In this document: positions 46,825 through 47,199 of the stretch, piece by piece
Numbering within the stretch: position 1 is the stretch's first letter
Layout: each line of letters begins with the position of its first letter
Source: Ignavibacteriales bacterium
GTDB taxonomy: Bacteria; Bacteroidota; Ignavibacteria; Ignavibacteriales; Melioribacteraceae
NCBI GenBank assembly: GCA_016177735.1
Contig: JACOUS010000020.1
Coordinates: 1-64,000, forward strand
Direction of reading: 5' to 3'
DNA length: 64,000 nt
The notes under the pieces: generated by a model
The model's database searches: none
What the model was told of the DNA's origin: nothing
The model's input: only the letters and a program-made list of their open reading frames with translations
Program-made: the position numbers and the translations under genes

Positions 46825-46859
46825 AAAAAAGCCCTTTCGATTTCTCGTGAAGGGCTTTT
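46825..46859 (-). terminator. Attenuator terminator 2 (promoter-distal, next to metY)
   Basis: On the minus strand AAAAGCCCTT pairs with AAGGGCTTTT (10 bp). A second inner stem CGA/TCG is closed by a GAAA tetraloop, and a run of six T follows. It lies about 63 bases before the metY ATG and about 30 bases after the second leader peptide stop. Its 5' arm base run CCTTCACG can pair instead with CGTGGAGG in the leader ORF (46898-46905). Confidence 0.9.
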
Positions 46860-46887
46860 GGTTTTTGTCTATTCTAAAATTTATATG

Positions 46888-46983
46888 TTAAACCGGACCT
46901 CCACGTTTGTGCGCAGACATACGCATCATCATACACATGCACATCATAATATTGACCGGCATTATGTTTTTAATCTTGTTCAT
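46888..46983 (-). CDS. Met-rich leader peptide 2 of the metY operon
   Basis: The 31-codon frame starts at ATG 46983 and stops with TAA at 46888. It has nine Met and two Cys, with the run MMCMCMMM at residues 13-20 and one more Met at 22. It ends SAHKRGGPV. Such content is improbable by chance and fits a ribosome-stalling sensor of charged tRNA-Met (and perhaps tRNA-Cys). It lies 20 bases after terminator 1 and is followed by terminator 2. The CGTGGAGG antiterminator strand lies in codons 27-29, 12 bases beyond the last Met codon. The ORF is too short for usual gene calling. No strong ribosome site is visible; TATACAAGG lies about 10 bases upstream. Confidence 0.85.
   Translation of the reverse strand: MNKIKNIMPVNIMMCMCMMMRMSAHKRGGPV
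46898..46905 (-). promoter_or_regulatory. Antiterminator strand of attenuator 2
   Basis: Minus-strand CGTGGAGG inside leader peptide 2 can form 8 pairs (one G-U) with CCTTCACG (46846-46853) in the 5' arm of terminator 2. A ribosome waiting at the Met codons would leave this strand free. One that reaches the stop codon would mask or pass it. Confidence 0.65.
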
Positions 46984-47003
46984 TTATAAGCCTTGTATAT
47001 AAC

Positions 47004-47033
47004 AAAAAAGCCCTTCAACTTTTGAAGGGCTTT
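47004..47033 (-). terminator. Attenuator terminator 1 (promoter-proximal)
   Basis: A perfect 12-bp stem AAAGCCCTTCAA / TTGAAGGGCTTT has a 3-base loop and is followed by a run of T on the minus strand. It begins 24 bases after the stop codon of leader peptide 1. The AGCCCTTC in its 5' arm (47024-47031) is the exact complement of GAAGGGCT in the leader ORF. Confidence 0.92.
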
Positions 47034-47057
47034 GATGAAAAATCTATGATATATTTA

Positions 47058-47144
47058 TCAGCCCTTCGTAAAGAAATACATCATCATGCACATCATTCCG
47101 CGAATGGCTGCTATGTTAAATGTATTTTTTGCAAAAGGCATCAT
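47058..47144 (-). CDS. Met-rich leader peptide 1 of the metY operon
   Basis: The 28-codon frame starts at ATG 47144 (or 47141) and stops with TGA at 47058. Residues 17-22 read MMCMMM; there are seven Met and one Cys. It begins about 24 bases after the promoter -10 element, with AAAGAGA just upstream as a possible ribosome site. The last codons (TKG and stop) contain GAAGGGCT, the strand that can disrupt terminator 1. The order promoter, Met-rich ORF, antiterminator strand, terminator is that of classical amino-acid attenuators. I infer that low charged tRNA-Met stalls the ribosome and allows read-through. Confidence 0.88.
   Translation of the reverse strand: MMPFAKNTFNIAAIRGMMCMMMYFFTKG
47060..47067 (-). 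promoter_or_regulatory. Antiterminator strand of attenuator 1
   Basis: Minus-strand GAAGGGCT overlaps the last codons and stop of leader peptide 1. It is exactly complementary to the AGCCCTTC of terminator 1 (47024-47031). It starts 11 bases after the last Met codon, outside the shadow of a ribosome paused at the first Met codons. Confidence 0.7.
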
Positions 47145-47168
47145 TTTTCTCTTTGATAATTTTAGGTG

Positions 47169-47199
47169 CAAAGCTAACTTTCTTGAGGCTTCATGTCAA
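47169..47199 (-). promoter_or_regulatory. metY: Promoter of the metY-lysC-metX operon
   Basis: Minus-strand TTGACA (47199-47194), 17 bases, then TAGCTTTG (47176-47169) fits the Bacteroidota TAnnTTTG consensus plus a full -35-like hexamer. It lies right before leader peptide 1 and right after the terminator of the upstream gene. Confidence 0.75.

Follow-up and report, generated by a model that had tools for sequence, protein, structure and literature searches.

Two predicted Met/Cys leader-peptide attenuators in series upstream of metY-lysC-metX in a member of the Ignavibacteriales

INTRODUCTION

Why should a sulfur operon be preceded by two short open reading frames (ORFs) crowded with Met and Cys codons, one behind the other and each with a terminator of its own? 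The question is raised by the minus strand of the stretch of DNA analyzed here, 64,000 nucleotides in length and referred to as the window, in which a sequence-only reading had placed, from 47199 to 46825, a promoter-like site, ORF1, terminator 1, ORF2 and terminator 2, followed by metY-lysC-metX, and had proposed two methionine-sensing leader-peptide attenuators in series. We found the coordinates and strand of the promoter, the two ORFs, the two terminators and metY to be right, with every element read on the minus strand, and comparison with relatives supports both the serial arrangement and Met (and Cys) as the probable regulatory codons. In our judgment, it is highly likely that metY-lysC-metX is preceded by two ribosome-mediated (trp-type) transcription attenuators in series.

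RESULTS AND DISCUSSION

Architecture of the locus

All elements described here lie on the minus strand. The leader opens with a promoter-like site, TTGACA-N17-TAGCTTTG (47199 to 47169; TTGACA at 47199 to 47194 and TAGCTTTG at 47176 to 47169), which we take to fit the Bacteroidota -33/-7 consensus. Leader ORF1 (47144 to 47058) has 28 codons (MMPFAKNTFNIAAIRGMMCMMMYFFTKG) and contains the putative regulatory run MMCMMM. At this first gate, a protector strand, GCCTTTTG, at the start of the ORF (47139 to 47132) has a partner, CGAAGGGC, at its end (47068 to 47061), and the antiterminator strand, GAAGGGCT (47067 to 47060), extends into the stop codon; the terminator (47033 to 47004) has the perfect 12-bp stem that had been described (47033 to 47007, 12 pairs, loop of 3) and a U run to 47004. 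Leader ORF2 (46983 to 46888), with 31 codons (MNKIKNIMPVNIMMCMCMMMRMSAHKRGGPV), contains the run MMCMCMMMRM, and the second gate comprises the antiterminator strand CGTGGAGG (46905 to 46898) and a terminator (46859 to 46825) with stem arms at 46859 to 46850 and 46836 to 46827 and a U run to 46825. An 8-nucleotide strand complementary to the terminator 5' arm is present at both gates, as had been claimed, and at gate 2 its partner is CCTTCACG (46853 to 46846), with one G-U among the pairs. A His-rich ORF on the plus strand (46795 to 46989) is the complement of the Met codons.

The first gene of the operon is metY, encoding O-acetylhomoserine sulfhydrylase (46762 to 45458; NCBIfam TIGR01326, 688.7 bits, cut-off 495.1), followed by a lysC-type aspartate kinase gene (45446 to 44040; TIGR00657, 313.5 bits, cut-off 208.7) and metX, encoding homoserine O-acetyltransferase (44025 to 42940; NF001209, 460.5 bits, cut-off 331; 475.1 against TIGR01392, under its cut-off of 500). 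The nearest named MetY records belong to Melioribacter metagenome-assembled genomes (MAGs), at 79 to 88% identity in a comparison that may leave out the window's own genome, and MetY of Stygiobacter electus, placed in the Melioribacteraceae, Ignavibacteriales, Ignavibacteria, falls in the same clade as that of the window; these comparisons support the surmise of an Ignavibacteria genome.

Promoters upstream of and between the gates

Of 39 first gates, 34 have a pattern of the form TTGACn-N16-19-TAnnTTn within the 75 nucleotides that precede the first leader ATG. In all 11 tandem loci this Bacteroidota-like pattern is absent between ORF1 and metY, and a separate promoter for gate 2, which we had considered, finds no pattern match in any of them; the pattern also misses the upstream promoter of L011. 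A consensus scan returned five sigma-70-like sites for the stretch, where shuffles gave 2.9 +/- 1.9; the site at 47199 is not among them, and minus-strand sites matching 9 of 12 positions lie inside both ORFs (47119 to 47092 and 46973 to 46946). Transcription may therefore also start between the gates, because of these weak sigma-70-like sites. The distance from the end of the terminator 1 stem to the ATG of ORF2 is 19 to 30 nucleotides in 10 of the 11 tandem loci and 162 nucleotides in L049, where the long gap contains a palindromic, repeat-like stretch (L049:2990-3100).

The leader ORFs are unlikely to be fortuitous

The richness of both ORFs in Met and Cys is as unusual as it had seemed: when all ATG ORFs of 12 to 50 codons in the window were considered (260 on the plus and 282 on the minus strand), only ORF1, with 6, and ORF2, with 9, of the 542 contained at least five Met/Cys within 10 codons. 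Among 65 metY upstream regions, each of at least 400 nucleotides, a Met/Cys-rich ORF was found in the sense direction in 36 and in the antisense direction in none, and in 2 of 2,600 dinucleotide shuffles; two such ORFs occurred in 11 of 65 upstreams, in no antisense sequence and in 0 of 2,600 shuffles. The coding signal of the leaders is modest: when Met codons are excluded, three leader groups have pN/pS values of 0.54, 0.68 and 0.65. Relatives differ greatly in peptide sequence beyond the Met/Cys run, and the number, order and mix of the two residues vary as well, from MMCMMM (L001) and AMCCCCMMM (L019) to MIMHMIMRM (L033) and CC alone (L036).

Second gates among relatives: peptide or SAM-I riboswitch

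Searches for MetY covered 58 relatives, of which 33 matched at E <= 1e-100, and 164 genomes of the order, of which 69 matched at E <= 1e-150. From these, 67 metY upstream regions were obtained; three more were cut by contig ends (L075 and L080, at contig edges, and G156). Layouts were assigned by eye from the ORF list, a leader having at least three Met/Cys past codon 3 and more than 12%, or CC; the ORFs of L012, L029 and L058 and extra ORFs of L018, L030 and L069 were not counted, L036 was counted on two Cys codons alone, and L047, whose ORF is over-lengthened by an upstream ATG, was counted as a single gate via the same locus, L190. SAM-I in this assignment is a sequence pattern, with which an Rfam scan agreed in 19 of 19 loci (18 with the riboswitch and L030 without).

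Tandem Met/Cys ORFs without SAM-I were found in 11 of the 67 upstreams (two in g1, two in g17, six in g2 and one in g54), a single Met/Cys ORF without SAM-I in 5, a Met/Cys leader followed by SAM-I in 25, SAM-I without such a leader in 20 (read by eye) and neither in 5, one of which offers just 255 nucleotides of sequence; L052 was not parsed. The conserved ORFs and tandem order for which the sequence-only reading had proposed to examine relatives are present in the 11 tandem loci; the 20 upstreams with SAM-I alone and the 5 with neither element count against the proposal. The tandem is a local form of a broader arrangement in which SAM-I is the commoner second gate: among the 41 upstreams with a Met/Cys gate, the second gate is SAM-I in 25 and a peptide in 11.

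No match to SAM-I (RF00162), which precedes metY in many relatives, was found at E <= 1 in the window from 44000 to 49000, and whole-genome searches, which detected the riboswitch in 29 of 58 genomes, found none in the window's genome (with strict filters) or in G001, G002 and G017. A T-box or other Rfam leader was also considered; two Rfam matches were obtained, both far under their gathering scores and neither a T-box. Two adjacent covariance-model matches precede metY at contig ends in G153 and G023.

In a MetY tree of 46 rows, built without L064, L071, L074 and the rows with neither element, 12 of the 13 rows with a peptide gate and no SAM-I group together (support 100/97) and adjoin two SAM-only rows (91/95); the 13th, L030 of family f2, lies elsewhere. 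Ten of the 12 are tandem, and the two single-gate rows are nested within the group, one of them being S. electus 09-Me, which is recorded as a strain rather than a MAG. This distribution suggests that the tandem is a clade-specific form with a second peptide gate in place of SAM-I. It is most simply read as a single event in the window's family, in which SAM-I gave way to the second peptide gate, and a single subsequent loss of a gate.

Proposed mechanism and folding of the gates

The ORFs, their Met/Cys runs, the terminators and their geometry, conservation and distribution among clades are established by sequence comparison; from these we infer that the leaders are translated, that ribosomes stall within them, that the operon responds to Met/Cys and that the effects of the gates multiply. 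At each gate a ribosome would translate the short leader ORF. With Met-tRNA, and perhaps also Cys-tRNA, in the charged state, the ribosome would reach the stop codon and cover strand 1 (GAAGGGC-like), leaving strand 2 (GCCCTTC) to pair with strand 3, and transcription would terminate. A ribosome waiting at Met/Cys codons would leave strand 1, some 13 nucleotides downstream, free to pair with strand 2, and the terminator would be blocked. RNA polymerase would have to pass two such gates, the second at the position that SAM-I occupies in relatives, so that read-through would approximate the product of both; two gates in series may sharpen the response, as had been suggested.

An intrinsic terminator stands between the leader ORF and the genes at both gates; the consensus scan also found terminator 1 and missed terminator 2, whose loop is longer than the 8 that the scan allows. 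The statistics that follow concern 49 gate units, the set being drawn up without L036.1 (wrong hairpin picked), L065.1 (terminator not found by the script), L047, L131 and L132. In the window, the gate 1 antiterminator is stronger than those of dinucleotide shuffles (p = 0.005); that of gate 2 is weak (p = 0.10) and beats only 30 of 48 swapped partners, and its counterpart in the closest relative, L009, reaches -19.3 kcal/mol (p = 0.010). The antiterminator attained p <= 0.05 in 30 of the 49 units (p <= 0.01 in 15), with 10 of 11 at gate 1 and 7 of 11 at gate 2 of the tandem loci; among the 19 units above 0.05 were some in which the strand 1 window started past a late Met/Cys codon. Across all 49, a unit's own strand 1 paired better than strands taken from the other units did on average (Wilcoxon p = 0.0004).

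Strand 1 keeps a narrow spacing among units from both the last Met/Cys codon and the stop codon. It starts a median of 13 nucleotides (quartiles 12 and 16) past the first base of the last preceding Met/Cys codon and therefore at what would be the edge of a stalled ribosome; one study puts that edge 12 to 15 nucleotides from the P site (PMC3641672). With a ribosome stalled at that codon and strand 3 not yet made, the antiterminator has the lowest energy in 46 of 49 units (gate 1, 11 of 11; gate 2, 8 of 11; single gates, 4 of 4; SAM-followed gates, 23 of 23), and with the ribosome at the stop codon it does so in 1 of 49, an outcome that is partly due to construction. When no ribosome was present and folding was halted before strand 3, the antiterminator formed at gate 1 in 10 and at gate 2 in 9 of the 11 tandem loci. 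In the window, every state folded with strand 3 included, even the stalled one, has the terminator as its minimum-energy structure; the antiterminator must therefore win by the order of folding, which is considered to matter likewise in classical attenuators.

The sequence-only reading had proposed a comparison for compensatory changes in the stems. Read by eye, all three strands change together in some relatives (GGAGGGC in L132, GGAAGACC in L112 and GGAAAGGC in L127). Cross-talk between the gates through their common GCCCTTC stem was entertained and set aside; the stem is common to all layouts and therefore provides no evidence for it.

A putative protector helix distinguishes the gates

The two gates differ structurally, gate 1 having a long helix between the start and the end of its ORF and gate 2 mostly lacking one. 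In the window this duplex reaches -23.5 kcal/mol (p = 0.010), and a start-to-end helix attained p <= 0.05 against shuffles in 11 of 11 gate 1 and 1 of 11 gate 2 units of the tandem loci, in 3 of 4 single gates and in none of 23 SAM-followed gates. In seven gate 1 ORFs of equal length, 80% of cells were paired, against 38 to 59% in slid controls. The covariation score was reached by 7 of 500 shuffles, and three pairs had changed on both sides, a count matched by 146 of 500; covariation support for this helix is limited.

The protector helix may shut gate 1 when ORF1 is untranslated, a provision that gate 2 would lack. Met starvation would itself be expected to lower the charging of initiator tRNA and with it leader translation, a difficulty for the proposed mechanism. 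In the ribosome-free fold before strand 3 is made, the protector helix wins at gate 1 of the window and the antiterminator in the other 10 gate 1 units; opposite ribosome-free defaults of the two gates, suggested by the window alone, disagree with the folds over all tandem loci and may yet hold.

Other explanations of the leader

The ORFs could encode Met/Cys-rich peptides with a function of their own, such as metal binding, and the hairpins could be ordinary terminators of small transcripts. Every ORF does have its own terminator, and Met/Cys-rich peptides are able to bind copper, but we hold this to be very unlikely in view of the variability outside the Met/Cys run, the narrow spacing that ties the last Met/Cys codon to strand 1 and the stop codon, the occurrence of such ORFs before metY, cysK, cysH, metX and sulfate-uptake genes and the superiority, on average, of own over swapped antiterminator partners. 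Equally unlikely is a TnaC-like scheme in which stalling would depend on the nascent peptide and a small molecule, SAM or Met, rather than on tRNA charging. Nascent-peptide-dependent stalling is known from plant CGS1 as well. The varying number, order and mix of Met and Cys fit codon sensing better than a conserved arrest sequence, and if an excess of product caused the arrest, the present strand order would make the response run the wrong way, even though free tryptophan is reported to stall ribosomes on TnaC (PMC8429421) and SAM is the ligand of the second gate in many relatives.

A third reading, in which gate 1 alone works as an attenuator and gate 2 is a decaying remnant, is unlikely, though less so than these two. 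The feeble gate 2 antiterminator of the window, the one-gated Stygiobacter branch and the smaller share of gate 2 than of gate 1 units that fold into the antiterminator under stalling speak for it; retention of gate 2 in 11 genomes, the 9 Met/Cys in 10 codons of ORF2, the majority of gate 2 units with a significant antiterminator and its strength in L009 speak against it.

Relation to known systems

The trp, his, ilv and leu leaders resemble the present one in their short ORF of regulatory codons, alternative hairpins, intrinsic terminator and biosynthetic operon; the differences are the Met and Cys codons, the two serial gates for overlapping signals and the riboswitch that serves as the second gate in many relatives. 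We know of no Met leader attenuator. Leader ORFs with Cys runs in mycobacterial cys operons were reportedly treated by Canestrari in 2020. Among the titles, abstracts and text passages returned by a literature search of one library, none describes an attenuator that relies on Met codons or a leader that places a peptide gate and a SAM riboswitch in series.

The sequence-only reading had thought a tandem pair sensing Met before such an operon undescribed, which holds within that search; tandem leader-ORF attenuators as such are known from Salmonella mgtCBR (PMC3641672). mgtCBR is similar in having two leader ORFs and two attenuators per leader, one of which senses tRNA charging; its signals are ATP and proline and its stem-loops are unlike intrinsic terminators, whereas both gates here have intrinsic terminators and Met/Cys codons. 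The tandem SAM and B12 riboswitches of Bacillus clausii metE, described in the same source (PMC3641672), likewise place two independent serial terminators before a Met gene, but in the present leaders one or both sensors are predicted to be translated ORFs. Mycobacterial cys operons share the runs of Cys codons before sulfur genes; a survey gives them no conserved terminator hairpins (PMC1262725), in contrast to the intrinsic terminators of our first gates.

Related regulation appears in other papers. In Flavobacterium, amino acid operons have been suggested to lie downstream of leader-peptide attenuators (PMC9723704), and short leader ORFs have been suggested in Bacteroides (PMC7366714). Naville and Gautheret described switches between T-boxes or riboswitches and leader peptides (PMC2965389), the Actinobacteria survey reported no conserved RNA structure for Met operons of that group (PMC1262725), and a Xanthomonas met operon is controlled by a 5' untranslated region resembling SAM-I (PMC6230763). 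In Mycobacterium tuberculosis, short ORFs are reported to work together with B12 riboswitches (PMC11260477), so that a leader combining a riboswitch with a translated ORF has been described before.

Should the leader behave as predicted, methionine supply would control the operon at two successive gates. Ribosome-mediated attenuation is known; new would be the Met/Cys codons, the two serial gates and the exchange with SAM-I, their function being predicted. Methionine would then join the amino acids to which leader-peptide attenuators respond, and the locus would exemplify how, in nature, a second peptide gate can come to stand where a riboswitch had been. The layouts (peptide plus SAM, peptide plus peptide, SAM alone and peptide alone) offer a ready comparison for asking why charged tRNA and SAM should be sensed separately, and they bear on how Met-codon sensing copes with the requirement of initiation itself for Met.

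We give about even chances to a broader proposition: that the Ignavibacteriota and relatives run sulfur metabolism by serial modular gates, of which the first reads the charging of Met/Cys-tRNA and the second is exchangeable (SAM-I, another Met ORF or an ORF with a poly-Cys end), and that the window's clade lost the SAM sensor and gained a second, structurally different charging gate, so that its two gates, one with and one without a protector helix, may answer differently to failure of translation initiation.

Leaders before other sulfur genes

R1, a covariance model of the gates, matched 131 of 164 genomes of the order at E <= 0.05, the weak matches including plain terminators. Forty matches outside the metY loci already in hand were fetched, mostly by rank; 30 have a Met/Cys-rich leader ORF and 10 do not. 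In 28 of the 30 the leader precedes a sulfur gene (cysH in 10, cysK in 9, metY in 4 and one each of a sulfate-binding protein gene, a metZ-like gene, metX, a sulfite/nitrite-reductase-like gene and ggt), and in 2 the gene is unknown or missing. NCBIfam was used to check the genes of L111, L112 (below the family cut-off), L114, L115, L118, L120, L121, L126, L127 (a partial match, below cut-offs) and L136; other cysH, cysK and metY names rest on likeness of the N terminus. At the cysH loci, an ORF ending in at least three Cys follows the first gate in 7 of 10, and SAM-I occupies that place in two.

The window's own genome contains two such leaders on other contigs: on C16 (L111:374-709), a Met-rich leader and terminator and then an ORF ending in CCCCC precede the gene for a sulfate ABC transporter substrate-binding protein, and on C4 (L112:380-530), a Cys/Met-rich leader (ICCTNFGMWMHCIC) with the three-strand GGAAGACC stem precedes the metZ-like gene. 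At nine loci (L118, L123, L128, L134, L136 to L139 and L141), a leader with a run of at least three Cys and a terminator stand shortly before a cysK-like gene. A leader containing Leu and Ile, with a strong antiterminator-like strand, lies before an ilvD-like gene, so named by likeness (L129:2979-3090), and attenuation in these genomes may not be limited to sulfur amino acids.

In a phylum-wide sample, 35 of 395 genomes matched R1 at E <= 1e-4. In family f32, 15 genomes match, and a Met/Cys leader followed by SAM-I was seen in all 13 whose loci were given; by likeness of the N terminus, metY is the first gene downstream in 7 and another gene in 6. In those six (L170, L173, L176, L177, L179 and L180), the peptide gate and SAM-I are followed directly by an ORF of 160 to 183 codons with a similar N terminus. 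Three of the five matching f30 loci were viewed, two having a Met/Cys leader before a MetY-like gene with no SAM-I between and the other (L166) having no leader, and in L168, of the window's class, a Met-rich ORF precedes an unrelated gene, with no SAM-I. Cys-rich ORFs, with up to seven consecutive Cys before the stop, also lie upstream of metY in Raineya, Marinoscillum, a Cyclobacteriaceae MAG and a Bacteroidetes MAG (L255, L256, L258 and L260).
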